From a virus: 49,145 nucleotides of DNA. The stretch covers positions 1-49,145 of IMG/VR virus record IMGVR_UViG_3300009164_000112; one strand, written 5' to 3'. A program made the translations under genes and the position numbers. Position 1 is the first letter of the stretch, and every line of letters begins with the position of its first letter. Shown piece after piece: positions 2,747-43,735 of this stretch. Below the pieces are notes generated by a model. That model made no database searches. It was not told the DNA's origin and worked only from the letters and a program-made list of their open reading frames with translations.

Positions 2747-2747
2747 C

Positions 2748-21349: not shown

Positions 21350-21368
21350 TACACGCCCCTTTATTCTA

Positions 21369-21376: not shown

Positions 21377-21389
21377 TCAAAACTGCCCA

Positions 21390-23240: not shown

Positions 23241-23241
23241 T

Positions 23242-25344
23242 TTATTGTCTACCAGTATAGATAATATAGCTGACTGTCATGTAGGGGTTCATTATACTAA
23301 ACGCTACTCCTAAAGTTCCGGATGTATCAATGCCACCACTGGTAGGAAGATATTGTCCTGTTCCAGCTGCGCTGGGACCTAATCCTGCAATAAAGTTTGT
23401 ATCCGGAATAACAGTGCTTGAGTTTCTAAATGCATAGAACTGTGTTCCAGCATTTGCTCGTAAATCGTGCTCGTGATCTGGAATGTTTGTCAATGCCAAC
23501 GATTTTTCAGCTGCTCCTGATCCCGAACCTAACGTATCAGCGGCAACATCTGTAACCCTGTCAGCATTGCCGCCGCCAGCATCAATTAATACTGTAGGAT
23601 CTGCAATGCTTGGCACAGTATTCCCGTTATCCATATCATCTTTACCTAGAGCAAAACGGCCTCTTAAATCAGGTAGTGCAAAAGTTGAACTACCTATTAG
23701 CAAAGAGACTGCTTTAAAATTATAACCAATAACTGAAAATAGCTCTGGATAGTCACCAATTCTAATCTCGCTACCGTCACATAGTAAATACCCGCCAGGC
23801 GGTGTTGCACTACCAAACGCCATTATAGACCCGATTGGCATGGTTGCAACGTTGGTTAGTAAAGTTGTTTTAGTAATTTTTCTAAGACCACTACCTGGAC
23901 GATTAATTAAAAATTCATCATTATCTTGGCTAGTTGTTACTGCTGTTCTATTTGTTACAAAGTCTTGAGAAATTGTTGTAGTAAATGTTGCTAGTCCTGA
24001 ACCGCTTTGACCGTCAAAGCTAACTGTATTACTAGAAACTTCTCCTGTCAATGAAAACACGGTCGGACTTGACAATTTACTTGCAGAGCCAGTAACGTTA
24101 CCCGTAACGCTACCAGTTACATTACCTACAAATTCTTGTGCAAGTATTTGATCTCCGTAAATTCTACGCCACGCTTTACCACCTACTGTTAACGGATCAC
24201 TACCTAAGTCGTGTGTTCCGTCTGCATCAGGAATGATTGCATAAGTGTTACTAGTTCCAGTTATTGTAAAACTGCCGCCTACTCTTAAATTTTTTGTAAT
24301 TGCAACGCCACCTGCAGTTTTAATACTGCCTGTAACTAAACTGGTCGAATCTGTAGTGCCAGTAATTATTAAATTACCGTTTGATTTAATATTACCATTA
24401 ACATCTAACGCTTCTGCAGGGGCTGTGGTATTAATACCAACTGCCAACGAGCTGTCAATACGCATAACTGTGGATGTTACACCATTGTTAACTGTCTTAA
24501 AGTCAAATGCTGAACCATTGGTTTTATTATTAAATGTCGGAATGTTGCTGTCAACTGTAACACTTAATTCGCCAGATGAACCAACTGTGATACCGCTAGG
24601 GTTACGAACGTTGAATTGGAAATTTGTTGTGCTAGTGGTATCGCTTCTTAAAAAATTCGAAGCTGCTACCGCATTACTACCAATTACTAATGCGTCGGCT
24701 TTTTCACTGGTTCCCCAGAACTTGTTGGCTGCGCTGTTGCTGTTAAAATCTTTTATTGATAAATTAAAACCTTGCTTGATCTCTGTAAAACCAGCAATGG
24801 TTGATTTGGGAATAAATGTATCTTTGCTGATAATTCCAACTTTTTCATCACTTACAAATAGATTTAGCACGTTGTGACTGACGTTGTTCGTGTCAACTAC
24901 TATTTCAACTTCTGCTCCAGTTCTTAATCCACTGCTGAATTGAGGACCTACCAGAACCCAATTACTGCCGGTAAACAAGTAAAGCTGTTGATTATCTGTA
25001 TCAGCCCATAGATCGCCTAGGTTACTATTAGCTACCGCTGGGGCTGAGTTAGATTTTTTAATACTACCAGCAGGCGCCCATGTTGTCCCATCATATACTT
25101 TTAATTGATTAACGCTGGCACTGTTGTCATACCACAACTGTCCTTCAACTGGATTGGTTGGGGCTGTATTTTTAGCAAAGTTTTCTAAAAGATGTAAGAA
25201 GTTTTCAGCAATGATCTGTGCATAGCCGACATAATTCTTACCTACAAAGGTTACAGGTAGTTGTTGATTAAGCGTTTGGTCTTCGACGGTTATATCAGAT
25301 TTCTGAACATTGCCAGTTTCAGTGTATTTTATTGTATAACTCAT
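23242..25344 (-). CDS. tail fibre protein (700 aa) with phage tail-collar domain
   Basis: The N-terminus has the shared module (FVGKNYVGYAQIIAENFLHL, VEGQLWYDNSASVNQLKVYD). Toward the C-terminus MPIGSIMAFGSATPPGGYLL with CDGSEIRIGDYPELFSVIG, then LPDLRGRFALGKDD, form the classical phage tail-collar fold of short fibres. A GGIDTSGTLG tail follows. It is probably one of the short tail-fibre or collar variants at the baseplate. Start overlaps the previous gene stop by one base. Confidence 0.85.
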   Translation of the reverse strand: MSYTIKYTETGNVQKSDITVEDQTLNQQLPVTFVGKNYVGYAQIIAENFLHLLENFAKNTAPTNPVEGQLWYDNSASVNQLKVYDGTTWAPAGSIKKSNSAPAVANSNLGDLWADTDNQQLYLFTGSNWVLVGPQFSSGLRTGAEVEIVVDTNNVSHNVLNLFVSDEKVGIISKDTFIPKSTIAGFTEIKQGFNLSIKDFNSNSAANKFWGTSEKADALVIGSNAVAASNFLRSDTTSTTNFQFNVRNPSGITVGSSGELSVTVDSNIPTFNNKTNGSAFDFKTVNNGVTSTVMRIDSSLAVGINTTAPAEALDVNGNIKSNGNLIITGTTDSTSLVTGSIKTAGGVAITKNLRVGGSFTITGTSNTYAIIPDADGTHDLGSDPLTVGGKAWRRIYGDQILAQEFVGNVTGSVTGNVTGSASKLSSPTVFSLTGEVSSNTVSFDGQSGSGLATFTTTISQDFVTNRTAVTTSQDNDEFLINRPGSGLRKITKTTLLTNVATMPIGSIMAFGSATPPGGYLLCDGSEIRIGDYPELFSVIGYNFKAVSLLIGSSTFALPDLRGRFALGKDDMDNGNTVPSIADPTVLIDAGGGNADRVTDVAADTLGSGSGAAEKSLALTNIPDHEHDLRANAGTQFYAFRNSSTVIPDTNFIAGLGPSAAGTGQYLPTSGGIDTSGTLGVAFSIMNPYMTVSYIIYTGRQ

Positions 25345-25955
25345 TAGGCTACCTCAGTTAAACCTGTAAGACTTTGAATTCTTACGGTGTAATCAATTTG
25401 GATTAATCTGTTTAATGACTTCTGAACTGGGTGAAAAATTACATGGGTTAATAATTTACTATTACCTGTAGAACTGTAACTCTTTAGACCTAATTCATCA
25501 AAGACAAATGTTCCGTCATTGTTATTACTGGTATCCATGGCGTCTTGCCCATTAGGCTCGCCGTAGTCTAACAAACAAGTAATAAACACATCAGTGTAAT
25601 TAGTGCCCGTAACGTGTCTTGTTTCTATCTTGTTTCGTGTAGGGTCAACATTGGCTACTGCTCTATCATCAACTACTTTGGTATAAGTTTGATTATAAAG
25701 GGTGGCATTTGTTCCTACACTATTAGGTGTAAGATATGTTATAATACCTGTAGGATCTACACTGGTTCCCCCGTTTCCGAAGGCCATTTCGTAGATAAAA
25801 CCCTGCCCAGAATTTCCAATACTATCCGCTAATGCAATACTCATATTTTCATAGTGAATTGCATTACGCTTGTTAATGAAAATTTCATTGGTTTGAGGGT
25901 TCCATATTTTTATATGCCCCTCAATGTTTAATCCTGAAAAATCTCTGCTAAACAT
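25344..25955 (-). CDS. virion structural protein (203 aa)
   Basis: The sequence begins MFSRDFSGLNIEGHIKIWNP and has INKRNAIHYENMSIALADS; from memory a GHIKI-x-xP-x-TNEIF-x-xKRNAIHYENMS-type pattern is found in structural proteins of T4-like aquatic phages. The rest is beta-rich. It lies between the giant protein and the collar fibre with a TATAAATA late promoter 20 bases upstream, consistent with late expression and assembly near the fibres. Confidence 0.65.
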   Translation of the reverse strand: MFSRDFSGLNIEGHIKIWNPQTNEIFINKRNAIHYENMSIALADSIGNSGQGFIYEMAFGNGGTSVDPTGIITYLTPNSVGTNATLYNQTYTKVVDDRAVANVDPTRNKIETRHVTGTNYTDVFITCLLDYGEPNGQDAMDTSNNNDGTFVFDELGLKSYSSTGNSKLLTHVIFHPVQKSLNRLIQIDYTVRIQSLTGLTEVA

Positions 25956-25975: not shown

Positions 25976-25983
25976 TATTTATA
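25976..25983 (-). promoter_or_regulatory. T4-type late promoter TATAAATA
   Basis: On the minus strand TATAAATA overlaps the giant gene's stop codon and is 20 bases from the ATG at 25955. The distance and sequence match the other late-type boxes here. Confidence 0.72.
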
Positions 25984-28900
25984 GTGGCCAAACACCTGGC
26001 GCTGCCTTTATAAAATTAGCGATATTGTTGGTGCTATCAACTAAACTTGTATCAAGGTCGTTCCACATTTTTCCTATCTTTTTAATTACTACAATCTTAG
26101 TATCGTCCGGCGGAGGTGATGTTAAACGGATCGAAGAGCTAGTGCCGTCAACACTAAACTCTGCTTCATGATCAACATCGCCTAACGAGCTCGGATCTAT
26201 AGTAATATCATGTAATTTGTAAGGCTTCTTCTTGAGTCTATATCCTGCAACAAACACTTCAACTTCATTGCATTGTCCAAAGTTATCCGGAATAGTGCTT
26301 CTAAACCACTCAGTGTATGCTGTGCTACCGTCATCTATTGTGCCAGGTTGCACATCCGGCATGTAGTTTACATATAACATATTACTGCTATCTGTAGCAA
26401 CAAACGTCTCAACTACAAACTCATCCTTATACGGAATAGTTTCAGAAATTCCAATATTTAAAACACTGGTGCCCGAATTGTGGACAGTAGGAACGCCAGT
26501 TCCCAATGTTCCACGACGTAGTCTGCTTAAAACATTGCCAGTCTTGGCAAAATATTCTATACGCTCACCGTTGATGTAGATAATTCCAGGTAAGTTTCCT
26601 TCTGGATTCGGATCGTCCAATACTGTTGCATCGTCGACTGTTATACCTATATCTGTTTGCAGAAGTTGATTTACAATAAATGTCTGCTTGTTTTTGTTCA
26701 ATCTCTTGTAGTGCGTTCTATTCAGCATGTCTTTGAATTGCATATAAGAATACTGATTATTAGTAAATTCTGGACTATAACCAATCATGCTGATGTTATC
26801 ACCTTGAGCAACATCTTTTACTTCAACAGTCTGTCGATCTTCTAATAATCTCCAATCAATACTGTGAGTTAATAGCTGTCCATTCTTTATAACCCAAACA
26901 TAATCATCTGACACTGTTACTCTGTCTAAAACAAATAATCCTCTTTCTTTATTTCTAAAAGTAAAGTAATCTACTGTTCCAGGTATTAGTGTAATTGCTG
27001 GGGTTATTATGTCTTCCTTACGTTGAATGTCAACTACATCATGATTGTAAAAACTGATAACTTCAATGTCTAGCCCAGCTGGCCAAGATGTAGAATCAGT
27101 ATTAATTAACTCTAAAGTATTATAAGTTAATACATATTCAGCATTGGTGTCAACCAATACAACAAGTTTTCCACCTTCAACATATTGGCTTGCTGTTAGC
27201 TCAACACTGACTGTTTCAAAATCAAATATGTATTCGCTACCAACTAGCAATAATACACCATTTAAATATACTCTTAAATTAATTGGGGAGAATGAATACG
27301 GAGCAAATTTATGTTGGGGCAACGAGTAAGTTAATTCTCCGTCAGCTAATGTAAAATACTCTGCACTAGGAGCTCTTAAAATAGTCTGACCAACTCTAAC
27401 AATTACATTGCTTTCGTAAATTTGATTAAAACCTATTTCATTAGTTAAATTATATGCCAGACTTGAACCATCTGTAACTAATGTTTCAGATTTAACAATG
27501 CTGGTTTTTTGTATCTGCGTTGAATCATCACCATAAAAAGATTTTTGTATCATATAGTTAATGATACTTCCATCTGTTGGGGCTGATACAAATCGTATAC
27601 CTACTCTGTAAGCACTTTGATACGTTATATCTGTCTGGAACAAATCGTAATTTAAATTATTACCGTTTACTAACACCACTGAAGTCGCACCTTCAGTCCA
27701 AGTAGCATTAGTAATGAATTCTACAGTGCTGCCGTCTGCAACAAAATAATCAAGATCTAAAATTCCGTCACCATTGAAACTCCAGCTTGCCACTGAAACA
27801 CTGGCATTGTTGATAGGTGCAGATGTAAACACAACTTCGTTGTTTTGCCAATCTACAGTATAATCAACATCAATAGTCTTAATAATATCATCTATTACAA
27901 CAAGTATTGCCTGTTTGCTGTTAGAATATTGATTAATACCAAATTGTGTGCGGGTGCCATTGGCTTTGTAGTTCATCCATTTAATTTTTGCACTACCATC
28001 TGTGGGCAACGAAAAAACTTTTACAGCCACTGAATCTAATATTTGACCTGGAACTAATTCTTCAGGTCCGTGACTTGTGTCGGGCGTAACAAAATTATCA
28101 CCGTCTAATATAATATCATCTGGTGCAACACCTGTAGCAGAAGTGTATGCTAAGTTTCCGCCTTCTAATATAGTATCATATTCATTCTCGTTAGGTAAGA
28201 AGCTACCGTCGCTAGTGCTCTTGCGGAATATAACTTTATCCCCAGCGTTGATATTCAATGCATATGGGTCTGTTAAATTAGGCAAGTTTATAACATTTGT
28301 TACACCGTCACCAATAATTGTAGACATTACTACCCAATCTTGTGGCAATTTTCTACCGTTGGGTTGAACAGTTGAACCATCATATAGAGCAAAATACGGA
28401 TCGTCAATTCTTAATCCGTTGACGTATACGTTAATTTCTTGACCAACTTCGGGTGTATAAGGCAAAGTGTATGTGTAGGTGCTGTCTCCAACAGTGACAA
28501 TATAGTCATCAAATGCAGAATCAAAACCGTCCCATTGATCTGAGAACCAAGGAAGTGCATCCCATCCTGCGCCAGCACCAAATCCTAAACCAGTAACAGT
28601 AACACCACCGTAATCAACACCTGTTAATAATTGATCTAAGTTTTTACCTAATTGGCCAGTTGTGGGATTATAGAAGAAGTTAATTCTGTCAGCTGCTGAC
28701 AATAATGTAATATCTTTATAATATGTAATTTCTATAATATCACCAATTGTCGGAGCAGTGTCTAATGTTAGCACACTGTAATACGAAGTATATCCTCTAG
28801 AGGTCGTAGACTTCATTGTGATAGTATACTCTTCTCTTAATACTTCTTGAGCATTTACTGTCACCGATGATCGACCAATTTTTATATCAGCTGGCCATTT

Positions 28901-31900
28901 CAATGCAAACTGTTTTAAACTACCAGAACCGGTAAATGTTTCTGTTTCTGTAAGTTCCGTAATGTAATAATTTTTATTAATCCTATCAAACTTAACAGCA
29001 ATATGGCAAGATCTTACCACTTCACTTTCAATAATTGCCACTGCTCGACCAGCTGTGCCATTTTCTAATAATCCGCCATCGAGAACAATAGTCGGAGCCG
29101 ATAAGTATCCAGTTCCTGTATTAATAATTTTAATTCTGTTTACTTTACCATTGGCAATGTAGGCTACAGCTTCTGCGCCTGTGCCGTTACCAGTGATTCT
29201 AACTACTGGCGGTCTAACATATAATGCTCCACCATCAACAATTTCTATTGATTTAATTTTAAATCCAACATGGTCTAACCAGTTTTTCCATGGATATTCT
29301 GTAACTTCTGTTGATCCTGCAACAATCTCATTGTCGTAGTAGACAACATTCAGTGGTTCTATTACACCGTTTACATTGATACGCGGCGGAAGATCAAAAT
29401 CAGACACCATTGACGGAGCGGCATCTATTTTATTATAGGCGCTGATATATTCTCTAACCTTTGTTCTATATGGTTTTACTTCGTTGACATAATCTTCGTA
29501 GTTAGAAAGATTGTCATTATTGTAATTTGTTTTCTGTTTTAATTCGCCGGCATTGTGCGTTGCTTTGATGTAGCTGGTTTTTATTAACCAATCTAAATAA
29601 GTTTGTTCACTTAGTGCATATCTAAAACCAACAAATAATATATCAAGCCAATACTGTCTATAGTTGTCGACAAATATATCACTACGCAGTGTTTCTAATA
29701 TTATTCTTAATTCTACGCTGGCAGAATTATCGTAAGAATCATTATCAAACAATCCGCCATCAAAGGTTAACAAACTATTTTTTAGTGTGTATAGATTATT
29801 AGAGAATTCAATTGTTCCGTCCTGTCTACCAATTACTCGATAACTTTGTGTGTAATCTTGACTTGTTGAGTCAGCATACTTTTCAAGTAGCATCCAACCG
29901 CCAGAGCCAACATTAAATACCTTTACAGTATCTCCAATGTTTGTTGATAACAACGGAATTTGATAAGTGTAATTTACACTGTAATCAATTTTTGTAAATT
30001 GGTTGTAACCGCTGGCATACCAATCAACATACGACCAGAAATTTTCAACATTATAACTTTGGCTTTTTACTCGTGACCATAATTGTAATATATTATCATA
30101 AGCATATATACTCCAACGATCTAATGCTTGACTGTCTGTTTGCACCAAGATACTAAATGGCCTTACACTGAATCTAGTTGTGGAAGTATACCCAATGCCA
30201 CCATTTAATACGGTCACACCAGTGACACGCCCTTGAGTATCTATAGTTGTTTTAACAACTGCATTGATACCAGTGCCTTTGATTGTAACATAAGGCGGAT
30301 TAACGTAACCAACTCCAGTTTCAGTTACTGTTGCTCCTGTAATTTTTCCATCTACAATAATAGGTGTTAGTTTAGCTGGACGTAATACATTAGTTGAAAC
30401 AAATCTAATTTCAGCATCAGTGTCTACAACGGTGTCATACAGTCCACGAGATGGGTATGGAATTGCTTCTTTTTCTTTTAAATTTGTTAGGTCAAATTCA
30501 TCAACTATTAATAAATCTTTTAAAATACTATTAGTTTTTTCTAATACTTGTTTAAGAGCTTCGTATCTGTAGACAAACATACTTTGTCTAGGACGGAATT
30601 CAATACCATATTTTTTCTTAGGTTGCAGATTAATGTCTGGAACTACTCTATCATTCTTATCTTTACCTACAAGACTATCAATCCACTTTTCTTCAATGGC
30701 TGCCGGAACTATAGTATCAGCATCTTGTCTAATAATCTTCCATTGGCTGTGAATATTAATATTATCTTGAGGCACTAACCAATATTGAACATTTAACTTG
30801 ACCTGGCCATCGGTCAATTGATTTTTACAGTTAAACAAACTGATACCAGAAGGGGAAGTAAATGCCGTAAATTTATAACCTTGACCTTTAGGATCGGAGA
30901 TCAGCAAAGCTACACTTTCTGCAGAAATTGTTCTGCCTTCAATATTTGGAACTATTTTTTTATTTTTTACCCAGTAATAGTAAAGATTTTTAAATGTTTT
31001 AGTTTGTGTGTCATATTTTCGCTTGACGCTATAAACAGTGTCGCCATACTTGGTTGTGCCGCTTATACCTTTAACTAGACCTTCTTCCGTATCGGCTAGT
31101 TTATTCCACTGAGCCGGCAAATTCTTACTCTTTACCCATTCGTAGATATCTATGCTGGCAGTTTCATACAATGTATTCCAAGTGCTATTTCTATAGATAG
31201 TATTAGTGTCATTGGATTCTAAGAATTTTGCTCTAGTTAAATCCCACCATAGTGTTCCAACAAATTGATCAGTCCAATTAGATCCGTCGTCAACTGTCAC
31301 TGACTCGATACCGGCGCTGTAAATTGCAGGATCATAGTAAGTTTTATATTTGATTTCTTGATCAGCCACACCGGCAATTTTGCCTCTAATGGTATCTATT
31401 GTGTCAATATAAGTAATCAATTGATTTGAATTTGAATTGTATAGATACATTTTTTTAATTTTATCTATATCAACATACTCAACTTGTTCATGCTTTTTCA
31501 TCCAGCTATACTTGCTGTTAGTTTTACTATAGACTACTACTGATCCAGCATCTGTATTTTGATCATAGGTAGCAGATGGAGACGATACAAATATACTGTT
31601 TCTTGCCGTTTGAATCATTGAGCCGTATTCATTTTTAGCAATTTCAATATGTAGAGATAATGTTTCTCCAAATATATAATTGTTAATATATTTGTCATAC
31701 ACATCTATTCTACCGCTGTCAATAAATCCATCTACTATTGAGTTTGTTGATTCATCAAAAGATGTTGCTAAATTATCAAATGTAGTGACCACATTGTTAT
31801 CACCATTTTTAGAAAATATCACCAACGACTTGTCATTGTTTAAAAATTCTACAACATGCCCAAATTTTTCAGCAACTTCTGCATACTTTCTAGTGATTGT

Positions 31901-34900
31901 TTGATGTAAAGAATATGAATTAGCATTAGCAGTTAATACAAAAACTGCTCCTTGATCAATTTTTTCTCCGTCATACAATCCTGCACCAATGGCCAAAGAA
32001 TTACCGTCATTTGATAAAGAAATACTTTCGCCTAATCTAACTTCTTGTGTTAGGTCAAGATCTTTACCGCTGATAACAGAGTCTAAATCAAAATTTGTTC
32101 CATTAAAACTATAAACAAATATCTTGCCCTTGTCTACTACTCGTAGATCTAATGGGTGCCATTTAGATTCAATAAATGGACCGGCTGGGGTTAAATCTAA
32201 TGTTGAGTCAGCTAATGCACTATCCCCTTGCGAACTGTCTTCAATTAATCCTTCACAGCTCCAATATTGTCCTTGATAGTATACAATATCACCTAAGTTG
32301 TAGGCAAGGTCAGTTCTATAAGGACCTCTATAATTGTCATAGTTGATGTTGTCACTGCGAGGAGCAGAAACTACAAGTTTTGATCCGTTTGTTGTTAAGT
32401 CAAAATCATAACCAAATGCATCATTGGCAAATACAGACTCTACCGATTCGCCAAATAGGATAGTAGTGCTGCCGTCAGCAGTAACATTATTATCATATTC
32501 AAGTGTCACAATTTGTTTTGGAACAAAACATTGTATGTTAGCATCCGAAACTTCTTGCCATAGACTAGGGTTATTTTCAAATGGATCTGTTGGAACGGCT
32601 GCTACTGCTTGATATAATTTATAATTATAAAAAACAATTTCTCCTGCACTATATTCATATCCAGGATTATGATATCCTCGATAGGATCTAGTGTAATCCA
32701 TGTGCCACTCGTAGCCACTGTCAACTGATACATCACCGTATCTAAAGAAATACAATCTACCTTGATTGTCATTGTAACCAGGACTGCTGATTACTGCAAG
32801 GTATTCGCCATTGTCTTCTGTAATTTTTATTTTAGAGCCAAATTTTTCATTGGCCACTGGGTAGGGGCTTGTGATAGCATGGTTAAACAAATAGTTTCCA
32901 GAATCATCTTTTTGGTATATGTATACCATACCTTGATTAAACAGTCCGCTGCTTGTTCCTGTAGCAGATGCTTCAACTAACCTAACTGGTTGCCAATCTT
33001 CTGAAAATTCTGTAATCACAGTGCTGTCAGCACCGATAAGATGTAGTGCTTCCCAATGAACAAAATTAGTAGTTACAATGTCGCCTTCATTATAAGTTGC
33101 AGGGGCAGAATATGTCCCTGCATATCTAGTTTTTACATTACTAGCTGTAGGTGCGGAGACAAATAACCAACGAGCATCTTCACTAAATGTCACTGTTTGC
33201 CCAAAGCTACCAACAGAGACAGCTAAGGTAGTATCTGGGTTGATTGTTTGTTTTTGTATCCATATACCAGCTGGATCTAGTTCAAATATAGCAACTTTAT
33301 TTGTATTTGTAGATACTACTGCTTTGTTAGTAGCCTCATTAATATAAAAACTTGTTCCAAATTTTTGATTTGCTATTGGGAATGATTGTTCAATTTCTTT
33401 CTTGGAGAACACCGGACTATTTTCCCAAACTGCCCATTTATTGTTATCTTGATCATCGGACCATATTAATTCATTTGGTTTTAATTGTTCAGGTAGACTG
33501 TTGTTAGCAGTGTCAAATGTTGCAAGTCTCGCTGTTATAAACTTGTATATTAAGATTTGAGAACTGTCTTCTTCTGCCAGACCTTTGGAGAAGTTATCTA
33601 AATTAATAACACTGCCCGACAATGATTTAATTTTATAAAATCCATTTACGTTAGTGGAATTAGCCACCATTATGATTTCACCAACTGCTAGATTAGGTGC
33701 TGAATCAAATGTTAGTTGAATGTTAGTGACTGTGGTTACTATGGAATCTACAGCCACCGTATGCTTAGTAACTCTATAAACATTCCAGTTGATCCCTTCA
33801 AACGCACACCATACATAGTCGCCGTCAACTAATACATAGTCTGCAGAATTAGTTAACAGTGAATCTAACGTATCTATGTTAAGTGCAACATCGTCATAAC
33901 GAACATATCCAGCAGTTCTTAAAAACTTATTAGGACTTACTACTGTTGGCCAGACACTGTAATTAAAATCTGCAGGTTTTAAATAGATGTCGTTGGAATT
34001 TTGTCTTATAATAAAATCTGGAATTTCGGTAGTTTTTTCTGTGGTAAATTCAATCGCTTGAGGATTAATTTTAAATTGACTTTCATCTAATGTTATTTCA
34101 ATTTCGTCAAAAGCTTCACTGCCACCATATTGACCTACTCGAACTGCCCACTCTTCATCTAACGTTAGACTTTCTTGATTGTCGGCGCTGAGAACATCAA
34201 ACAATTTGTTTAGAACATTTTCTGTTCCCTTTTCAGCAATCATTCCTTGATAAAACTTATATTGACTTACATCGTCTTTGATAATATTTTCAAGATATGT
34301 TCTCTTTTGATAGCCAATTAGATGTTGTGCAACTCGTTGTTGGCCAATATCAAAGTTGTCTGTGTTAAGATCGTAGAAATCATTAAACTGTTCTGCTTTG
34401 TAATCCCAGTTAGGCAATAGCCCCTTAGTTGGCTTTTTATCTAATCTTGTCCAGTCGTTAGGGTTAAATTCTAGAGACCCAGTAGTAGAATACTTTGCAC
34501 TATAATAGAATTGTTTATATTGAGCAATATCACCTAGCCGATAGTCAGTCCACGGAGCCCATACTACTACATCAGCTTGGTCGTATATAAATCCAGGAAT
34601 ATTAAAACTACCATCCCATCCATTAGAGATATATCCAACGACTTTAATTCTCTCTTGTCTATATCCTGGCTGTGGGTCATAGATTACATCATTAAAGTAA
34701 GTAATGTTATCTAACAATAATACATGTTCTTTTTGTATTAGATAGAATGTGGCACCATAGATACCTTGATTTGTATTTCTTGGGCTCAGTGTATAAACAC
34801 TATTTTCTCTATTAGTATTAATAAAATCTGATTGCAGAGGTTGCCCGTCGCTTTGCAATATTTTATACGAATAGAATAAATCAAAAATGTTATTAACTTG

Positions 34901-37900
34901 AGCTTGATTTGTTTGTAATGATAGTTTTATAGCACTAGGGCTTAAACAAATAACACTACCAACTGCCCAATTTTGTGTTAACCAGAAGGCAAATTCTTTA
35001 GCACTGGTCTCCCAGTTTGTTATGGCATTTAAGTTATTATTAAAATTATCAAAGATAAATCCTACAGATTTTAAATATTGCTCATAGCCAATTAAAAAAT
35101 CAACTACATCTTGGTATTCTGCAAATCTAGTTCCGTATGGAATACGAGATAATACAGATTCAAACTTTCTTTTGATTTCTATATCCTTGCCGCCAGATAC
35201 CGGAAGGCCGCCTAATCTTGTAAATTTTTCAGCATCAAATGTGTCTTGACTAGTATGTGCAGTAGTGCAACGATAATATTGATTATCATATCTTACTATA
35301 TTTTGTGCTCGGTATATCTGTGATGATGTCCAGTTCAGAAAGGGTTCGCTGATTCCACCAATGTTAATCACACGGCCGTTGCCTATAGGTTGATAATAAT
35401 CAAAATACGGATCATCAAATGTATAACCTCTAATTTCGTAACCATCGACAAATTTCTGAACAATAACTCCACTGTAGTTTATTTTTTGTATAGCAGAATT
35501 AGTGTTTAAAAAGATGTCATAATTTTCATCTGGCACAAAAACATTAGACGTGCTAGACGGGCTCTTGCTGTCTAATAATAATCTAAATTTTTCTTTGCTG
35601 GTAAATCCACCTAGCTTACTAGTCAATGAACAAGTAAGGTTACTTAAATCATTTTTATAATTATTGTATGTTGCAACATTTGGACCAGTTAATAACTCTA
35701 CAATCCAATTCAATATACCGCTAGAATATACTCGTGCATTGGACAGAGCAGTTGATGGTAATGATAAAGTTTTTAATTGTAATCTTAAATTAGTATCTTT
35801 GTAAACAAACTGTCCCACTAAATTTTTAACTGTTCTAGATCTATCTAACAACAGTCCTAAAATCTTATTTGGGTGCATTAATAGCGCAGTCTTGATTACA
35901 CTGAATGCATAATAGCTCGATCTAGTCCATGCAGATTCTGTAGGAGATCCATCTCCGAATGCAAAATCAGTGTTGGCATCAACCTGAATAAATCCTCTTA
36001 CAGAATTACTAATCAAAGGGCTGATTAAATTTCCATATTCATCTGCAGGTATTCTATCTACTAACCCAGGTCTAACAAATTTTTCTAAAACAACAGGAGG
36101 ATTTCCAGGTTGTCTAACAATACCTGCTTGTAGATCATCCCAAAGAATTAAGTTATCTGACGTATATGGTCTTGGGCCATATACCGATTGCCACCATGTA
36201 GGTTCTATACTAAACCCAAGACATTCCCACGGATGCGTGTGTGGGCGATCAGTGTCTAACAAATATCGATAAACACCTCTCCAATATCCTGGACTGGCCT
36301 CACCTGTTGGCAACGTATTTTTGTTGTAGTTGAAGGTAAAAGAATTTAGTCTATCAAAAAACTCATTTGCCGTTATATTGCTATCTAATAAACTTGTCCA
36401 TTTATAAAAGTCACCGCTGAGAATATCTAAAAACTCAGACTTAGTATAACTGTTAGTTCTGTTAACTCCTGGAATGATATCATAGATGTCTACAATAGTT
36501 GAATCGTAATCTATTTTGATATTATTATAAATTCTCTTTTCAAGTTCTAATAATATAGCATCTCTATAATCATTGTATGCAACTGTTATGCTGCCATCGT
36601 GACCTTGTATTACCAATGTTGGTTCAAGGTAAGTATCATCTTCGTAAATTTCAGGAACAAATTTTGGCCATAATCCTAATTTTGTAGGGGTAGCAGGTAT
36701 AAATGACCCGTCTGTAGTAGTGTATTCTACAATGTCGATAGAATCACCTTCAGCTAAAGGAGTTAAAATGTTAACAAATCCTTCACTGCTAAATTCATAT
36801 TCAACACCGTATACTAGTTGAGAACTATTCAGATAGATTAAAATTGCTTTATTTGATAACTCAGAAAGACTAAAAGTAAAAGACAACGGATATGTTGTAA
36901 TGTCGCTGTCTAAAACTTCAAAATTATATGTCTGGCCAGCTCGGTAAGGCAGCATGTCACTTAGATAGTATCTGTCAGTGTTAGGCTTTGGTTCATTTAT
37001 TTTAGCCAACACTAAGTCAACAAATTCTCTTGGATCAGTATCGATACCTAGTGAGTCTGCTGCCGCTAAGAAAATTCTTTTAAACTTGCCGTAGTCATCT
37101 CTGGCCATTTCTATAGCTTTTAGTGCGTTGGCTGTTTTACTACCTAGATGATACAAGCTATTCGCCATCGATCCACTATGCTGAATAAATCGTGTGCCGT
37201 ATTGTGAGAGATATCCGATGTCTCTTAAATTATTATCGCCTGGAAATGTTCCGACAAATTCGTTAACATTATTAACAATGGTGCCTACATGATCACTTAC
37301 CTGTCCTAATGTAAAAATACTGATATTATCATTCAACGGATTATTTTGTAAACTTATGGGTAGTTCATAATATCCATTATTATTTTTAGGTTGGGTAGCT
37401 AACGACTTAATTGTAAGTATATCTATTGATTTAATATTAGATGTTAATACTATTGTTTTATACCTTGCAGTGTCTACAATAGTATACAGATTTTTAGATA
37501 TTCTTAAACCATTAACATATACATTTAATTCTAAATCTGCAAGATCTAATATGTTGTCGTAAACATCTAACGCAAAATTATTAGTTTGATCAGACCCTTT
37601 ATAGATTCTAACCACTCGCTGATAATCATTGTAGTAGTTAGTGGTCCACCCATTACTGTAAGATGCTGTGCCATCAAACAACTTTAAATATGATTTTGAT
37701 ACACTTAATGTAATTAATTGAGCGGCAATTTTATAAGAGAACAAATCTTCATTGTAATCAAAATTAAAAACAATATCGCCTATGTTATTAATGTTTCTGT
37801 ATGTTAATGCAAATCCTAGTTCACTGTCATTAGTGCCAGTGCCCCGTGCATAAGAAAAAACTTTAGTTCCTTTAAAGTTAGTTCCTTCGTAATAGTTAAT

Positions 37901-39601
37901 ATTAGAAATACTGATTTCATTGTCGTCGAAGATATCAAAATAGATATCTTGATTAGTTGTTGTTTTTTCTTGACCAAGTGCCCATTGACTGCCGGTATAC
38001 CAATACATTTTACCTTGATTAGATCCTAGTTTAACTAGGACCGTTTCGTCGACTAGAGGTTCAGAATCGTCTGTATCAATCAATGTTATTTGTTTTTGTC
38101 GGGTAAGTCCAGATTGAACTTCAATAAATTTTACTTGGAAAATTCTACCAACTACTCGAACATCAGTGTCTGCTGCCACTAATAGCCTGTGGCCGTCTGC
38201 AAGATCTACACCATCTACATTATAGCCTATGCTACCTTCAATAGTGCTGAATACGTCTGTAGTGAATGTATCAATTAAGTCTACATTCTGTTTATTCTGA
38301 GTTCCAAAATTATACAGTTTTAAACCAGCATTAAATTCAATAATAGGACGTTTGGCTCTAGCTTCTTGATCTAAGTCTGCTATCGATCCGTTGATAGTTG
38401 CAGTGGTATTGATAATATCTTTGTGGAACCAACGATTATATCGACTCCAAGGATTTCTATCAGGACTGGCTTTGTTAACTGTTATATAATCTTTAGTTCC
38501 AGCATACGCACTGGCATCATCGAACGGCAAGTTGTCAAACGAAGTATCATCAAATAGTATAGTTTTTTGTTGACTGTATCCGCTGATAATTTCTAAGTCG
38601 TCAGCAGATACTAATTTAATACTACTACCCACTCCTTCTACATACCAATAACCGGAAGAATAAGATGTAGGGGTTACATTACCTACAAATTTTAATTTCA
38701 TTCCGTTACTTAGAGTGTATCCATTGCCCATAGTATAGTTTGATTTTCCGATAACTTCGGCTAATACATCAATACTGGTATTTTCTTCAATGTTTTGTAT
38801 TTGTAACACGCCGCCGACATTTACATCGTTTTCGCTAACATAGAATAAAATGTTTGGTGCATCTAACGGAACTTCAAATGTTATTACATCTCCGTCAACA
38901 GTAATTCCGTAAGGATACTTGTTTAATAATCCAGATGTTCGTTGTGTCTTAATGCTAAACGGATGTCCAGGTGCATTGATATTAAACTTATACGTTTGTC
39001 CTCGATATAATTTTAAAATAGGGTTTCTAGTTAACCCATCAGGAGTAAACAAGTATGCAAAATTGTCACCTTCGTCAACTAATCTCACTGAGTATTCGCT
39101 CTGGATTGCTAGTTGTTGTCCGTAGATGTTAACTACTTCTGGTCCGTATGGTAACCAATAGTATTGTTGAAAGTTTACAAACTTGTCCCAGTCAATTTGA
39201 GGGTTCCAACTGTAGAATTCTTCTTTGTTAATGCGTCTATGGTTGTTGGTGATGCCACCTAATACGCTGACGTGGTTAATATGATCAAGATAATCTTTGT
39301 TAAATGTTACAGAATCATTTTCATCTTTAATAATAACACTAGGTTCTAATTGATAAGTTTGACGATCTGTTGTTGTAGCAGATACAAATATATCGTTAGA
39401 TGTAGTGGCTTTACTGTCCTGTCTACCAATATACCCGTTAACTTTTTTAACCGTGCCAGGCTGGACTAACTGGTCCAGAGTTGCATGAACGAACTTTTTA
39501 TTACTATCAGTTCTATAAAATCTCGGCAGTAAATTAGAAACGTTTCTAGAAGACGGATCTAACGGTGCCGGATATTCGTTCTGATCGTTGTTATATGACA
39601 T
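25979..39601 (-). CDS. giant modular virion protein (4540 aa), at the gp7 position of the baseplate block
   Basis: One uninterrupted frame of 13.6 kb lies directly after the gp6-like gene, where T4 has gp7. Residues about 185-270 hold a cupredoxin-like segment (PILKLYRGQTYKFNINAPGH). Five carbohydrate-binding-like modules lie near residues 1424, 1679, 2159, 2304 and 2424 (for example YNLGDIVYYQGQYW). Residues about 2080-2690 carry seven FG-GAP-like units (for example FGQTVTFSEDARWLFVSAP). Residues about 3077-3140 and 3444-3517 repeat GVGY-x-x-PPYVTI and GTGYLSAPTI. About nine vYvNG-type adhesion modules lie mostly near the C-terminus (residues about 3580-4520). No enzymatic motif is seen. It is probably a fibrous or baseplate-attached adhesion protein; the exact T4 homologue is unclear. 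Start ATG 39601 has AAGG upstream. Confidence 0.85.
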   Translation of the reverse strand: MSYNNDQNEYPAPLDPSSRNVSNLLPRFYRTDSNKKFVHATLDQLVQPGTVKKVNGYIGRQDSKATTSNDIFVSATTTDRQTYQLEPSVIIKDENDSVTFNKDYLDHINHVSVLGGITNNHRRINKEEFYSWNPQIDWDKFVNFQQYYWLPYGPEVVNIYGQQLAIQSEYSVRLVDEGDNFAYLFTPDGLTRNPILKLYRGQTYKFNINAPGHPFSIKTQRTSGLLNKYPYGITVDGDVITFEVPLDAPNILFYVSENDVNVGGVLQIQNIEENTSIDVLAEVIGKSNYTMGNGYTLSNGMKLKFVGNVTPTSYSSGYWYVEGVGSSIKLVSADDLEIISGYSQQKTILFDDTSFDNLPFDDASAYAGTKDYITVNKASPDRNPWSRYNRWFHKDIINTTATINGSIADLDQEARAKRPIIEFNAGLKLYNFGTQNKQNVDLIDTFTTDVFSTIEGSIGYNVDGVDLADGHRLLVAADTDVRVVGRIFQVKFIEVQSGLTRQKQITLIDTDDSEPLVDETVLVKLGSNQGKMYWYTGSQWALGQEKTTTNQDIYFDIFDDNEISISNINYYEGTNFKGTKVFSYARGTGTNDSELGFALTYRNINNIGDIVFNFDYNEDLFSYKIAAQLITLSVSKSYLKLFDGTASYSNGWTTNYYNDYQRVVRIYKGSDQTNNFALDVYDNILDLADLELNVYVNGLRISKNLYTIVDTARYKTIVLTSNIKSIDILTIKSLATQPKNNNGYYELPISLQNNPLNDNISIFTLGQVSDHVGTIVNNVNEFVGTFPGDNNLRDIGYLSQYGTRFIQHSGSMANSLYHLGSKTANALKAIEMARDDYGKFKRIFLAAADSLGIDTDPREFVDLVLAKINEPKPNTDRYYLSDMLPYRAGQTYNFEVLDSDITTYPLSFTFSLSELSNKAILIYLNSSQLVYGVEYEFSSEGFVNILTPLAEGDSIDIVEYTTTDGSFIPATPTKLGLWPKFVPEIYEDDTYLEPTLVIQGHDGSITVAYNDYRDAILLELEKRIYNNIKIDYDSTIVDIYDIIPGVNRTNSYTKSEFLDILSGDFYKWTSLLDSNITANEFFDRLNSFTFNYNKNTLPTGEASPGYWRGVYRYLLDTDRPHTHPWECLGFSIEPTWWQSVYGPRPYTSDNLILWDDLQAGIVRQPGNPPVVLEKFVRPGLVDRIPADEYGNLISPLISNSVRGFIQVDANTDFAFGDGSPTESAWTRSSYYAFSVIKTALLMHPNKILGLLLDRSRTVKNLVGQFVYKDTNLRLQLKTLSLPSTALSNARVYSSGILNWIVELLTGPNVATYNNYKNDLSNLTCSLTSKLGGFTSKEKFRLLLDSKSPSSTSNVFVPDENYDIFLNTNSAIQKINYSGVIVQKFVDGYEIRGYTFDDPYFDYYQPIGNGRVINIGGISEPFLNWTSSQIYRAQNIVRYDNQYYRCTTAHTSQDTFDAEKFTRLGGLPVSGGKDIEIKRKFESVLSRIPYGTRFAEYQDVVDFLIGYEQYLKSVGFIFDNFNNNLNAITNWETSAKEFAFWLTQNWAVGSVICLSPSAIKLSLQTNQAQVNNIFDLFYSYKILQSDGQPLQSDFINTNRENSVYTLSPRNTNQGIYGATFYLIQKEHVLLLDNITYFNDVIYDPQPGYRQERIKVVGYISNGWDGSFNIPGFIYDQADVVVWAPWTDYRLGDIAQYKQFYYSAKYSTTGSLEFNPNDWTRLDKKPTKGLLPNWDYKAEQFNDFYDLNTDNFDIGQQRVAQHLIGYQKRTYLENIIKDDVSQYKFYQGMIAEKGTENVLNKLFDVLSADNQESLTLDEEWAVRVGQYGGSEAFDEIEITLDESQFKINPQAIEFTTEKTTEIPDFIIRQNSNDIYLKPADFNYSVWPTVVSPNKFLRTAGYVRYDDVALNIDTLDSLLTNSADYVLVDGDYVWCAFEGINWNVYRVTKHTVAVDSIVTTVTNIQLTFDSAPNLAVGEIIMVANSTNVNGFYKIKSLSGSVINLDNFSKGLAEEDSSQILIYKFITARLATFDTANNSLPEQLKPNELIWSDDQDNNKWAVWENSPVFSKKEIEQSFPIANQKFGTSFYINEATNKAVVSTNTNKVAIFELDPAGIWIQKQTINPDTTLAVSVGSFGQTVTFSEDARWLFVSAPTASNVKTRYAGTYSAPATYNEGDIVTTNFVHWEALHLIGADSTVITEFSEDWQPVRLVEASATGTSSGLFNQGMVYIYQKDDSGNYLFNHAITSPYPVANEKFGSKIKITEDNGEYLAVISSPGYNDNQGRLYFFRYGDVSVDSGYEWHMDYTRSYRGYHNPGYEYSAGEIVFYNYKLYQAVAAVPTDPFENNPSLWQEVSDANIQCFVPKQIVTLEYDNNVTADGSTTILFGESVESVFANDAFGYDFDLTTNGSKLVVSAPRSDNINYDNYRGPYRTDLAYNLGDIVYYQGQYWSCEGLIEDSSQGDSALADSTLDLTPAGPFIESKWHPLDLRVVDKGKIFVYSFNGTNFDLDSVISGKDLDLTQEVRLGESISLSNDGNSLAIGAGLYDGEKIDQGAVFVLTANANSYSLHQTITRKYAEVAEKFGHVVEFLNNDKSLVIFSKNGDNNVVTTFDNLATSFDESTNSIVDGFIDSGRIDVYDKYINNYIFGETLSLHIEIAKNEYGSMIQTARNSIFVSSPSATYDQNTDAGSVVVYSKTNSKYSWMKKHEQVEYVDIDKIKKMYLYNSNSNQLITYIDTIDTIRGKIAGVADQEIKYKTYYDPAIYSAGIESVTVDDGSNWTDQFVGTLWWDLTRAKFLESNDTNTIYRNSTWNTLYETASIDIYEWVKSKNLPAQWNKLADTEEGLVKGISGTTKYGDTVYSVKRKYDTQTKTFKNLYYYWVKNKKIVPNIEGRTISAESVALLISDPKGQGYKFTAFTSPSGISLFNCKNQLTDGQVKLNVQYWLVPQDNINIHSQWKIIRQDADTIVPAAIEEKWIDSLVGKDKNDRVVPDINLQPKKKYGIEFRPRQSMFVYRYEALKQVLEKTNSILKDLLIVDEFDLTNLKEKEAIPYPSRGLYDTVVDTDAEIRFVSTNVLRPAKLTPIIVDGKITGATVTETGVGYVNPPYVTIKGTGINAVVKTTIDTQGRVTGVTVLNGGIGYTSTTRFSVRPFSILVQTDSQALDRWSIYAYDNILQLWSRVKSQSYNVENFWSYVDWYASGYNQFTKIDYSVNYTYQIPLLSTNIGDTVKVFNVGSGGWMLLEKYADSTSQDYTQSYRVIGRQDGTIEFSNNLYTLKNSLLTFDGGLFDNDSYDNSASVELRIILETLRSDIFVDNYRQYWLDILFVGFRYALSEQTYLDWLIKTSYIKATHNAGELKQKTNYNNDNLSNYEDYVNEVKPYRTKVREYISAYNKIDAAPSMVSDFDLPPRINVNGVIEPLNVVYYDNEIVAGSTEVTEYPWKNWLDHVGFKIKSIEIVDGGALYVRPPVVRITGNGTGAEAVAYIANGKVNRIKIINTGTGYLSAPTIVLDGGLLENGTAGRAVAIIESEVVRSCHIAVKFDRINKNYYITELTETETFTGSGSLKQFALKWPADIKIGRSSVTVNAQEVLREEYTITMKSTTSRGYTSYYSVLTLDTAPTIGDIIEITYYKDITLLSAADRINFFYNPTTGQLGKNLDQLLTGVDYGGVTVTGLGFGAGAGWDALPWFSDQWDGFDSAFDDYIVTVGDSTYTYTLPYTPEVGQEINVYVNGLRIDDPYFALYDGSTVQPNGRKLPQDWVVMSTIIGDGVTNVINLPNLTDPYALNINAGDKVIFRKSTSDGSFLPNENEYDTILEGGNLAYTSATGVAPDDIILDGDNFVTPDTSHGPEELVPGQILDSVAVKVFSLPTDGSAKIKWMNYKANGTRTQFGINQYSNSKQAILVVIDDIIKTIDVDYTVDWQNNEVVFTSAPINNASVSVASWSFNGDGILDLDYFVADGSTVEFITNATWTEGATSVVLVNGNNLNYDLFQTDITYQSAYRVGIRFVSAPTDGSIINYMIQKSFYGDDSTQIQKTSIVKSETLVTDGSSLAYNLTNEIGFNQIYESNVIVRVGQTILRAPSAEYFTLADGELTYSLPQHKFAPYSFSPINLRVYLNGVLLLVGSEYIFDFETVSVELTASQYVEGGKLVVLVDTNAEYVLTYNTLELINTDSTSWPAGLDIEVISFYNHDVVDIQRKEDIITPAITLIPGTVDYFTFRNKERGLFVLDRVTVSDDYVWVIKNGQLLTHSIDWRLLEDRQTVEVKDVAQGDNISMIGYSPEFTNNQYSYMQFKDMLNRTHYKRLNKNKQTFIVNQLLQTDIGITVDDATVLDDPNPEGNLPGIIYINGERIEYFAKTGNVLSRLRRGTLGTGVPTVHNSGTSVLNIGISETIPYKDEFVVETFVATDSSNMLYVNYMPDVQPGTIDDGSTAYTEWFRSTIPDNFGQCNEVEVFVAGYRLKKKPYKLHDITIDPSSLGDVDHEAEFSVDGTSSSIRLTSPPPDDTKIVVIKKIGKMWNDLDTSLVDSTNNIANFIKAAPGVWPL

Positions 39602-39611
39602 CGGTTACCTT

Positions 39612-42600
39612 TTAAGAACTTGATATTTGATTTTTGTTTGCAATTTTTTCTGTTGTAGTTATTGCGCCATTGGATTTAATCTTACTACCTGTAATGCTAG
39701 TGATAATTTCTATATCGTCAACAGTGGCACCGCTGACAAATATCTCATCTTTCTCGCAAGATATTTCAAATAGACTGCCAAAATATAAATTATCTGCTTT
39801 CGGCACAATAACAAAACTGACAATAAACGGAGCCAGCTGAGACAACACATAGGTTGATAACTCGCTGAAATAGAACGTATTTCCAAAATCCCAATTTTCA
39901 ATAGCAAAGAACTGTTCTATTGCCACTAGTATGCGTGTCTTAACATCATTGTCACTGATAACCTGATCTGGATTTTTAACAACTTTAAATGTTGCTTGTA
40001 GATCAATGGTTGCCAATGTTCCAAACAATACTTTGTATTTCACTGGATGATAAATGATTTCATCGCTGATGGCTTTTATTTTTCTTAGGGTCGGATGTAA
40101 GTCATTATACAAATTATCACTGCTTGGCGGTAACGGTGCAGTTTCTATTACGCCGCTGACATATTGTCTGTAATATGTGTCATACTCTCTTGTTAACACA
40201 AATATATCAATGATATTGGTAATGCCAGGATCTATGCGAGACTCGTAGTCAGCATTATGAATATACTGGAATTTGAGATTATCTCGACCAACAAATACTT
40301 TGTAAGTTAAACTTGGAATCAGTGTTGAAGCAATTGAATCTAATTTTTTAACTACATCAGTATCCTGAAAGTAAAAATGCTGGCCTTCTGTATATTGCGA
40401 TAAACCACCAACTAGTATTTCGCTAGATAAAATAATTACTTTGCTGTCACTATTAGACACATATCGATAATCTTCTTGACGGTCACCAATGTTATACTTT
40501 TCTTGTATAATGTATTTGCTACTAGTTAATACAGACGTATCTATTATGTCGTTGAAAATTTCAGGATTATCTACTACACTGTCTTCATCCGAGTCAGGGA
40601 AAGTTATTTCAATTTTTTTAGTGTCAACATACCCATCTAATCCGTTATATTCTTTTAATACTGCCCAGTTTCTATCAAAAGTAAACGGAGTTGTTTGACT
40701 AGGTTTTGTATTAATACTTAAAACTTTTATAGCATCTTTAGCCACTGTGTTGGTTCTAGTATCATAAATTTTATCACTACTATCGTAATAAAATCTAACC
40801 TGTGTGTCACTTTCAAACACGTATCGTATCAGTCTTGATGCGACTGTATAGAATTCATCATCCGGAGTAAACAATATTAACCAACTGGCATCTAACTGTT
40901 GATTAGATTTATCACCAGATTTTCCAAGATTAAAACTGTTAACAGTATTGAGATTTGACTCAAATATTATTTTCCAAGTTCTTGTAGTTTTATCGTAGCG
41001 CAGACCAAACGGCTTGTTGTCGAATACCAAGTCGATCATTGTGGTAATTGTGCTGGGATCTATAATACTTTTATATTTTGGTATAATTTTAGAAACTATA
41101 GCACCTTGTGGTATAATGTCATTAAGGATGATCGGACCAAATCCAGTGGCCAGTATACCTGTATTATTTGCAGTGCCGTCACCTGTGACAGACACAATTT
41201 TAGTCCATAATACCGTGGCACTGTTGTTGGCAGTGGCCGAGCCATACTCTAATTTGTTATTTTTTGACTTGTCGAAATATCTTCCAACAGGTGCTGTAAA
41301 TTTTATCAATGCACCGGCTTCAATGTATGTCAAATCTGTTGCAGTGTATTGTCCTGTTTTAAAAACAGTGCCGTCAACAGTATCTCCGAAATAACCAGTA
41401 GTTTGATTAGTATCAACTGTAACTGGATACCAACCAGCATTAATAGTGACTGATGTATCTATTTCATAGTTTGAGTAGAAATAATTTTTTAAATTATCAT
41501 TTTTAATAATTTCAAAAACTTGATTGTAAATTACTGATTCAATGTCAGTTTTAGTAACATACGAAAATCTAAAACTGTCGTTGTATAATTCTTTGTATAC
41601 CGCACCATCATCAGAAAATAGATTTGTTTTGCTGTATTTTCCTGTGGGATCTATCAAGTCAAAGTAACGACTAATGCCGCTAGAACTTCTGTTCACTGCT
41701 TTGATTTTTAATAACTGTTGATTAACTGCTAACGGACTAATATTATAATCCTCGCCAGTTATCATTCTATTTTGTGTATAGTAATTTGCAGGTGCGTTGC
41801 TTTTTATACTTTCATTAGTTTCGGCTGCGGCAGCATTGACTACCATAGCTGTCAAACTCATGTTGATTGTTAAAATTTCAACCTGACCCGAATTACTGAG
41901 ATAAGAAATATCTATCGAAACTGATCGAACATCTTTAGGATTGATAGAGTAAGAAAATCCGTTGCTGTTTCTATAGTAAACTCTAAATGTTCCTAAAGGC
42001 AATGTGCCGAATACACCGTCAGAGAAGTTTAAACTAACCCTGTCTCCTACTCTGGTAATGACACTGTAGATGTTTTTAATATTCTTCTCTAAACTATTAT
42101 AAACAGTATTATTGCCCTTAAAACTAGATATTGGTTGCCAGTATTCTGCTTCTCGATTATTTTTATCAAGTCTATACAACCATACATCTGTGTCGTTAAT
42201 GTTAACTGCGTCAATGTCAATTACTTCATTTGACCCAGGTTGATCCAATGTAAATGTTCCAGTGTTTAACTGTCCTTGACGGAAGTGCATGAAGAATCCA
42301 CTGTTAGCCGAACCAGGACCGCGGCCATCATCTTTGTATATGAATGCCGGCTTAACTCCTTGTGCTGGGGCTTCTTCTTTGATTATTTCGTTGGTAGTAT
42401 CTATAATTGTGCTGGTAATTTCAAACGGCATGTTTCTACCATCAACTGCTTTGGTAAAACCAAAAACTGGCACGTCTGTATTAATACTCTTGAGTCTATA
42501 TTGCTCTGTAGGAACACCAAAGATTGTAGCTTTGGTGTCTGGCTTACCAAATTGTCTGTTGGTATCCAACGCTGAGTTGATCACTTTGATAAACTGTTCA

Positions 42601-43105: not shown

Positions 43106-43549
43106 TTAACTTACTAATCCGTTATCTTGATCGAATTTAAATTGCAGTCTTTCTGCAATATTATATGTTAGATACAACAATTCACACTCTATTTGTAGGC
43201 CTGATTCGTATTGTGTTACCACTACTTGATCGGCTTGCACACGGGGATCAAAGTTAATAATGTCTTCAACGTTTTTAACTATGGCGTTTTTTACATCCAC
43301 AGTAAACGGCTCGAATAACATGTCCCAAATGATGGTGCCAAACTCTGGATTTTCCAAGCGTTCGCCCTGACGAATATGAAAGTGATTAATAATGTCTTGT
43401 TTGATTAATGCAAGGTCGTATAACCCAAAGTTTTCAGTTGCATCACTGACTGTGCTGAAGCCTTTGTAAACTTTAACATTAGGTTGTTGCTGACTTTGCG
43501 ACGGCCCTTTGACTGTGGTGCGTTGATATAATCGGTTGTTGATTGTCAT
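43106..43549 (-). CDS. gp25-like baseplate wedge protein (147 aa)
   Basis: T4 gp25 is a sheath-initiating wedge component with a lysozyme-like fold family name but structural role. The core LIKQDIINHFHIRQGERLEN and PEFGTIIWDMLFEPFTVDV (about residues 48-85), then ENIINFDPRVQ-like VEDIINFDPRVQ, matches the family closely. The length is near T4's 132. It lies between the gp5-like and gp6-like genes as in T4-like phages, confirming the baseplate order. Confidence 0.87.
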   Translation of the reverse strand: MTINNRLYQRTTVKGPSQSQQQPNVKVYKGFSTVSDATENFGLYDLALIKQDIINHFHIRQGERLENPEFGTIIWDMLFEPFTVDVKNAIVKNVEDIINFDPRVQADQVVVTQYESGLQIECELLYLTYNIAERLQFKFDQDNGLVS

Positions 43550-43552
43550 ATT

Positions 43553-43735
43553 TTATTCCTCTTCTTGATTTTGAGGCGGTAACTTAGTAAATGTATCGAT
43601 AGGTGTAGTATACGTGTTCCAATACTCTCCAGCGTCGGCAATAGAATCACTGTTTTCACTGTATCTGCCATCGACATCTTTGTCAGTATTTTCTGGTTTA
43701 AATTTCTGCGGATCTAAATTCTCATGATGCGGCAA
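43553..43735 (-). CDS. C-terminal piece of the gp5-like hub gene, separated by a likely missing base
   Basis: A 60-codon frame read from TTG 43735, three bases from gp25-like. It starts PHHENLDPQKFKPENTDK and ends DTFTKLPPQNQEEE. The preceding gp5 frame ends THEPCRIMRI; one extra G at 43733 would read THEPWPHHENLDP straight into this frame, which I recall as the C-terminal pattern of gp5 proteins in T4-like aquatic phages. As a separate gene it has only a weak start and no clear ribosome-binding site. It is therefore best read as the end of the hub protein. Confidence 0.55.
   Translation of the reverse strand: MPHHENLDPQKFKPENTDKDVDGRYSENSDSIADAGEYWNTYTTPIDTFTKLPPQNQEEE

Follow-up and report, generated by a model that had tools for sequence, protein, structure and literature searches.

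A giant 4540-residue protein encoded beside gp6 is probably a baseplate wedge component bearing putative binding modules

What does a protein of 4540 residues do at the position where T4 encodes gp7? The question is raised by a gene in an IMG/VR virus record of 49,145 bp, which we refer to as the window. The gene occupies positions 25979..39601 on the minus strand, is read from 39601 to 25979, and begins 10 bp downstream of gp6. A preliminary description of the DNA had reported an uninterrupted frame of 13.6 kb here; indeed, the minus strand carries 4540 codons running from ATG to TAA with no internal stops. The plus strand of the same interval has many stops, and the longest open run in any of the other five frames is at most 97 codons. 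Together with a G+C content by codon position of 0.44/0.36/0.26, which is that of a gene, these observations exclude a chance origin of the giant frame.

The protein belongs to a family that is both widespread and consistently large. It matches the PHROGs profile phrog_10938, 'virion structural protein', with 1042.6 bits (E 0). A tblastn search returned relatives from 100 phage records, the majority of them jumbo phages of the PA5oct, Atu_ph07, RaK2, 121Q, GAP32, and CBB kinds; the homologues measure 3857 aa in PA5oct (core match at aa 519-1853, E 1e-139), 4449 in Atu_ph07, 3807 in SCTP-2, 3341 in GAP32, and 3326 in RaK2. Relatives are encoded on at least 591 IMG/VR stretches, complete ones on IMG/VR contigs reach 5308 aa, and one frame of more than 4300 aa is seen again in dozens of relatives. 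Given that long homologues recur and keep their place beside gp6, great length is stable across the family and not an accident of one record. The jumbo-phage members of phrog_10938 (3326-4449 aa) resemble the window protein in their homologous core, in their slot after gp6, and in having been found in virions, and matches to CBM5/12 and FG-GAP are common to most or half of the phrog_10938 members scanned. They differ in mostly missing the cupredoxin domain (five aligned) and in having other C-terminal modules. In two IMG/VR relatives, L078 and L107, the giant frame is broken near locus position ~14,000 into two shorter frames, the longer of which is 2728 and 2415 aa, respectively; this is either a frameshift or a true split.

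The preliminary description had stated that similar large proteins exist without an established role, and this agrees with what we find: the family is present in databases and proteomics under the sole annotation 'virion structural protein'. As to presence in the virion, mass spectrometry gives a positive answer for the relatives in phAPEC6, CBB, and PA5oct. In phAPEC6, gp245 is reported as a 381.88 kDa protein with 17 peptides in the virion, adjoining gp244, 'baseplate wedge' (PMC7247149), and in CBB 21 virion peptides are reported for CBB_236 (PMC5259590). We checked that CBB_236 is a 3340-aa homologue adjoining the gp6 gene CBB_237, and the record of PA5oct gp355 carries an ESI-MS/MS note. 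phAPEC6 gp245 is probably a homologue, judging by its size and its neighbor and because phAPEC6 is nearly identical to SP27/121Q; SP27 carries a homologue of the giant protein, and SP27 and phAPEC6 both carry the same gp6 type.

The surroundings of the gene are those of a baseplate operon. The upstream neighbor had been named as gp6 in the preliminary description, and this identification is secure: 39612..43058 encodes a protein of 1148 aa that matches phrog_10646, 'baseplate wedge subunit', with E 5e-289. Profile annotation places a gp25-like baseplate wedge subunit at 43106..43549 and a gp5-like hub protein, frame-disrupted in the record, at 43714..45623; a gp53-like baseplate wedge subunit (phrog_7145) lies at 48093..48401. 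On the 3' side of the giant gene are a 203-aa gene assigned by profile to phrog_11259 (25344..25955) and three genes of tail-fibre/collar type (19898..25344), the first two recognized by profile and the third by eye. All of these genes are on the minus strand. The arrangement recurs in relatives, with gp6 directly upstream in 180 of the 182 that have that DNA and the 203-aa gene on the 3' side in 47 of 68. An annotated gp6 directly precedes the giant gene in PA5oct, Atu_ph07, GAP32, RaK2, and CBB, and in SCTP-2 a large gene without annotation stands before it. The window type of gp6 and the giant protein are also found in a largely shared set of phage genera. PHROGs places phrog_10938 under 'head and packaging'; synteny and the relatives point to a baseplate operon. 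The same slot is taken by gp7 after gp6 in T4, by a gp7-labelled gene after gp6 in P-SSM4, and by gpI after gpJ in P2.

Several other genes of the window show features of their own. The gp5-like gene is split, changing frame at a stretch of six T on the coding strand. Programmed frameshifting at this slippery-type T6A run is ruled out because more than 100 relatives keep gp5 in a single frame, including L012, which is 93% identical over the N-terminus of the giant protein; the split is therefore most likely a homopolymer error in the record rather than programmed slippage. The three consecutive tail-fibre-type proteins begin with the same module of ~100 residues (LIGKNYAGYGEIQNENFLHLLENF and similar), a sequence likeness that reads as if they shared one attachment point. 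Adjoining their genes are five minus-strand frames (14325-18518), several of them glycosyltransferase-like by eye. Also by eye, candidates for GTP cyclohydrolase I, a radical-SAM (QueE-like) enzyme, and a ThyX-type thymidylate synthase lie at 1806-2636, 4343-5194, and 13646-14338, respectively; the first two would be in keeping with a pathway for 7-deazaguanine modification of DNA.

Conservation along the giant chain separates two classes of sequence. The core, aa 1–160, 281–1980, and 2700–3420, comprises ~2,700 residues or ~60% of the chain, is non-modular, and is kept across jumbo phages; the variable parts are the cupredoxin segment, the propeller, and everything after ~aa 3550. The N-terminal core domain (LLPRFYRT..., aa 1-160; 39122..39601, minus strand like all parts of the gene) is kept in jumbo phages and IMG/VR relatives, and its divergence follows that of gp6 with r 0.91. 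Further core stretches are aa 281-1420 (35342..38761), delimited by conservation, an AlphaFold2 model, and co-divergence with gp6; aa 1480-1680 (34562..35164) and aa 3180-3420 (29342..30064), both delimited by conservation and co-divergence with gp6; and aa 2700-3060 (30422..31504), likewise delimited by conservation and co-divergence with gp6 and without a PDB relative by profile. Between them lies a helical segment (aa 1728-1860; 34022..34420) whose KGT motif stands at aa 1791-1793; it is a candidate gp7/Tri2 helical core, with weak profile similarity.

The AlphaFold2 model of aa 1-1160, made with 102 sequences, has a pLDDT of 88 and a pTM of 0.78. Searching BFVD with it returned a structural protein of Atu_ph07 (TMq 0.71, E 1e-73) and a relative from an uncultured phage (TMq 0.90), both over the whole length. 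In the PDB, among the 50 matches listed, partners were found for the cupredoxin part only, so most of this part of the core is without a recognized solved relative. Neither the whole protein, by phmmer and by profile, nor aa 940–1870, 1722–1880, 2695–3060, and 3560–4540 gave anything in the PDB beyond chance-level or CBM-like matches.

The modules listed in the preliminary description can all be located. The cupredoxin-like segment, aa ~165-280 (38762..39109), does have that fold, both in the model and by its best PDB matches, CueO-type multicopper oxidases and rusticyanin (E ~1e-4). The type-1 copper ligands (His/Cys/His/Met) are not conserved: the Cys column holds V/S/A/Q in nearly all of the 102 sequences, and the later His and Met columns are gone. 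The segment is present in nearly all aligned IMG/VR relatives and rare in the five jumbo phages. For the carbohydrate-binding-like modules, CBM_5_12 (PF02839) scores 43.1 bits against a Pfam cut-off of 26.2, and the family profile finds four clear copies and a weak fifth; three of the five lie between blades of the propeller. Module 1 (aa 1424-1468; 35198..35332) is found by Pfam and the family profile and module 2 (aa 1681-1725; 34427..34561) by the family profile; the inserts in the propeller are at aa 2313-2352 (32546..32665) and aa 2433-2485 (32147..32305), by Pfam/family profile, and the weak one is at aa 2146-2189 (33035..33166), an internal repeat with aa 2395-2453.

The propeller itself (aa 2075-2691; 31529..33379) has exactly seven FG-GAP units, as counted by the family profile, in agreement with the seven units that had been described, and the AlphaFold2 model of aa 1481–2680 (pLDDT 78) contains an integrin-alpha-type propeller (9ind_A, TM 0.58 by target). 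The repeated modules resolve, with the family profile, into about nine beta modules, mostly in the tandem array at aa 3552-4276 (26774..28948), which is weakly like the T7 tail fibre N-terminal domain (PF03906, below cut-off), and two Gly-rich GxGY-type blocks at aa 3068-3142 (30176..30400), similar to blocks in P-SSM4 gp7, and aa 3448-3534 (29000..29260). Further on is a C-terminal segment (GERIEYF...RRGTLGT, aa 4300-4400; 26402..26704) whose divergence does not follow gp6. By fold class, the CBM5/12 and propeller modules are putative glycan-binding parts.

We compared the divergence of 11 segments of the protein with that of gp6 in 57 relatives and the window. Conserved regions track gp6 at similar rates (r 0.79–0.92), whereas divergence is greater and follows gp6 less well in the cupredoxin segment, the propeller, and the C-terminal beta modules (r 0.71–0.72), and the C-terminal end hardly follows it (r 0.09 and 0.31); shared ancestry raises all of these correlations, the contrast between regions is the informative part, and it may be partly technical, as alignment error in variable regions also lowers r. 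The lowest mean divergence of the 11 segments, 0.47 compared with 0.52 for gp6, is that of the KGT segment (aa 1728–1860). At the level of sequence, this is the pattern of a scaffold co-evolving with gp6 and bearing exchanged parts. The glycan-binding-type modules are inserted into the core or hung on it, and they are the parts that vary. Taken together, gene position and co-divergence indicate a partnership in one operon, not physical contact.

Is the giant protein recognizable as gp7? As the preliminary description had supposed, neither Pfam nor hhalign reveals any significant homology to gp7 or gp8 along its length. The Pfam models for the gp7 helical domain, domain V, and domain VI, as well as PF23786 and Tail_P2_I, find no match in the window protein at E values up to 10, and the T4 and P-SSM4 controls match. 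Nine to twelve segments compared by hhalign with T4 gp7, gp8, gp9, gp10, and gp11 gave nothing significant; the best match among gp8 to gp11, to gp10 with E 0.0036 over 33 columns, is unconvincing given the number of comparisons. Profiles for gp7 domain V, PF23786, and gp8 likewise detected nothing in PA5oct, Atu_ph07, SCTP-2, GAP32, RaK2, and two large contigs, with T4 giving gp7 domain V and gp8 and P-SSM4 giving PF23786 and gp8 as controls. PF23786 gives no match in T4 either, and its failure to match in the jumbo phages therefore counts for little. No gp7 structure appears among the PDB matches listed for either model, where propellers and cupredoxins crowd the lists; Foldseek with the aa 1481–2680 model was dominated by propellers and is silent on the KGT segment.

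It is in this segment that a resemblance to gp7 is suggestive. Residues 1728–1860 are helical, form a helix-turn-helix around KGT in the AlphaFold2 model, and carry FYQGMIAEKGTENVLNKLFDVL, whose KG is invariant in 28 of 28 aligned family members. KGT-like counterparts are FYSTKGIEASYKFLFKVLY in T4 gp7, FYSAKGTSFSIAYLFKLLY in P-SSM4 gp7, and HKGTIGAIRRVVEPL in P2 gpI. The spacing from an LP helix to KGT is 60 aa in the window protein, ~86 in T4 gp7, and ~75 in P2 gpI, in the same order. The N-terminal LLPRFYRT and KGT, 1,765 aa apart, were considered as halves of a split gp7 core and dropped, since the 'LLPNW' helix 60 residues before KGT fits the T4 spacing better. The KGT segments of T4 and P-SSM4 gp7 match each other significantly in hhalign (E 4.8e-7); the window family, in contrast, reaches E values of 0.04-0.5, the best (~0.04) against a combined T4 and cyanophage gp7 profile, which is not significant, and 11 of 200 column-shuffled profiles score as high. 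Relatives of P2 gpI are too alike to make a useful profile.

T4 gp7 (phrog_964; PF21427, PF21428, PF21456) shares with the window protein the place after gp6 and a helix-KG(T/I)-helix segment, but it has 1032 aa rather than 4540, no significant sequence match to the window protein, and no glycan-binding-type modules reported by Pfam. P2 gpI / Tri2 (Tail_P2_I) follows the gp6-type protein gpJ and has the LLP ... KGT layout, but is only 176 aa long and gives no significant profile match. P-SSM4 gp7 (phrog_701/2885, PF23786) is, like the window protein, giant, modular, and encoded directly after gp6, with KGT and Gly-rich GxGY repeats; the similarity between the two is at the level of modules only. 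Giant modular gp7-type proteins are annotated in cyanophages, and phrog_2885, 'baseplate wedge subunit', spans 4179 positions. Pelagi- and cyanomyophages have been reported to lack gp7, with VrlC suggested instead (PMC7029224). Contrary to this report, the 7312-aa P-SSM4 protein (L011:12145-34083) has both the T4-gp7-like segment and a match to PF23786.

We conclude that the giant protein is probably a baseplate wedge component that partners gp6, and the working equivalent of T4 gp7 / Tri2. Contractile baseplates that rest on gp6 are expected to require a partner of gp7 type, as in T4, P2, and the pyocins, and the giant protein is the sole such candidate seen in the operon. With the slot after gp6, the virion presence of relatives, and the co-divergence of the core with gp6, this leads us to read it as working in the place of gp7.

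Descent from gp7 is a separate matter, because it is a claim of homology and the wedge role a claim of function; the two overlap. The window protein could be a much diverged T4 gp7 (Tri2), with the helical core left at aa 1728-1830 and growth by insertion on both sides. This is plausible, if somewhat short of probable. The gene slot, the order from LP helix to KGT, and the spacing class are the same, the best or second-best local alignment to the T4/cyanophage profiles falls on the KGT helix, and P-SSM4 gp7, at its great length, is a proven precedent. But the KGT match alone falls short of significance in the tests described above, and the gp7 helical domain, domain V, and domain VI are unmatched in Pfam.

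Alternatively, the protein may be an accessory adhesin or fibre on the baseplate, the gp7 role being filled by another, unrecognized protein or dispensed with. Its CBM5/12 modules, integrin-like propeller, cupredoxin fold, and fibre-type beta modules would suit such a role, as would its exchangeable, fast-evolving parts and the tail-fibre genes downstream. We consider this unlikely, however, because a non-modular core of ~60% of the chain is shared across jumbo phages and co-diverges with gp6, synteny with gp6 is strict, and profiles find no other candidate for gp7 or gp8. The preliminary description was right about a giant multi-module product in the gp7 position, as the modules and the adjacency to gp6 both bear out, but its view of an adhesin rather than a wedge protein probably rests on a false contrast: the conserved core lies beside gp6 in nearly every relative and diverges in step with it. 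A wedge-type scaffold bearing binding modules describes the protein better.

It is quite improbable that the chain is a polyprotein that is cleaved post-translationally to give a wedge part and detached adhesin parts. Its extreme length would be in keeping with processing, and the mass-spectrometric coverage of the phAPEC6 and CBB relatives, 7-8% (PMC7247149, PMC5259590), leaves room for cut chains; but the peptides of both are listed under one gene product, and no processing is reported alongside them. A fusion of neighboring genes by assembly artefact, suggested by the length alone and by the one frame disruption elsewhere in the record (gp5), is refuted by independent homologues, as five named phages and dozens of independent contigs carry the same core in uninterrupted frames of 3326-5308 aa.

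In a wedge built with this scaffold, the ~2,700 core residues would assemble with gp6, gp25, and gp53, and the helical KGT segment (aa 1728-1830) would probably form the bundle that touches gp6. From the wedge rim would project the domain of cupredoxin fold, the CBM5/12 modules, the propeller, and the C-terminal beta modules; these could serve adsorption by binding surface glycans or by docking fibres, and surface binding may be linked to the baseplate switch. T4 gp7 is a monomer present in six copies (PMC3004832); if this copy number applies, each particle would carry six copies of a ~500-kDa chain. A more far-reaching proposal, which we regard as possible but doubtful, is that phages of the RaK2/Atu_ph07 type and many aquatic relatives have a wedge protein with no relation to T4 gp7, or none that can still be recognized, and that scaffold and receptor-binding array are joined in this single chain of 3,300-5,300 residues. 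Binding to the host could then bear on the contraction trigger with neither separate fibres nor a gp8/gp10 layer.

The window protein thus joins a family that is already in databases and proteomics but has no assigned function. What is new here is the synteny count, the map of core and modules, the co-divergence with gp6, the loss of the copper ligands, and a link to gp7 that is tested but unproven. The family is abundant and its members are very large, yet their annotation goes no further than 'virion structural protein', and the literature has yet to settle which protein stands in for T4 gp7 in T4-like phages of the aquatic and jumbo kinds (PMC7029224). If the family is indeed the partner of gp6, the baseplate wedge itself would be a main site of host-range evolution in these phages, and the modules concerned are now delimited.
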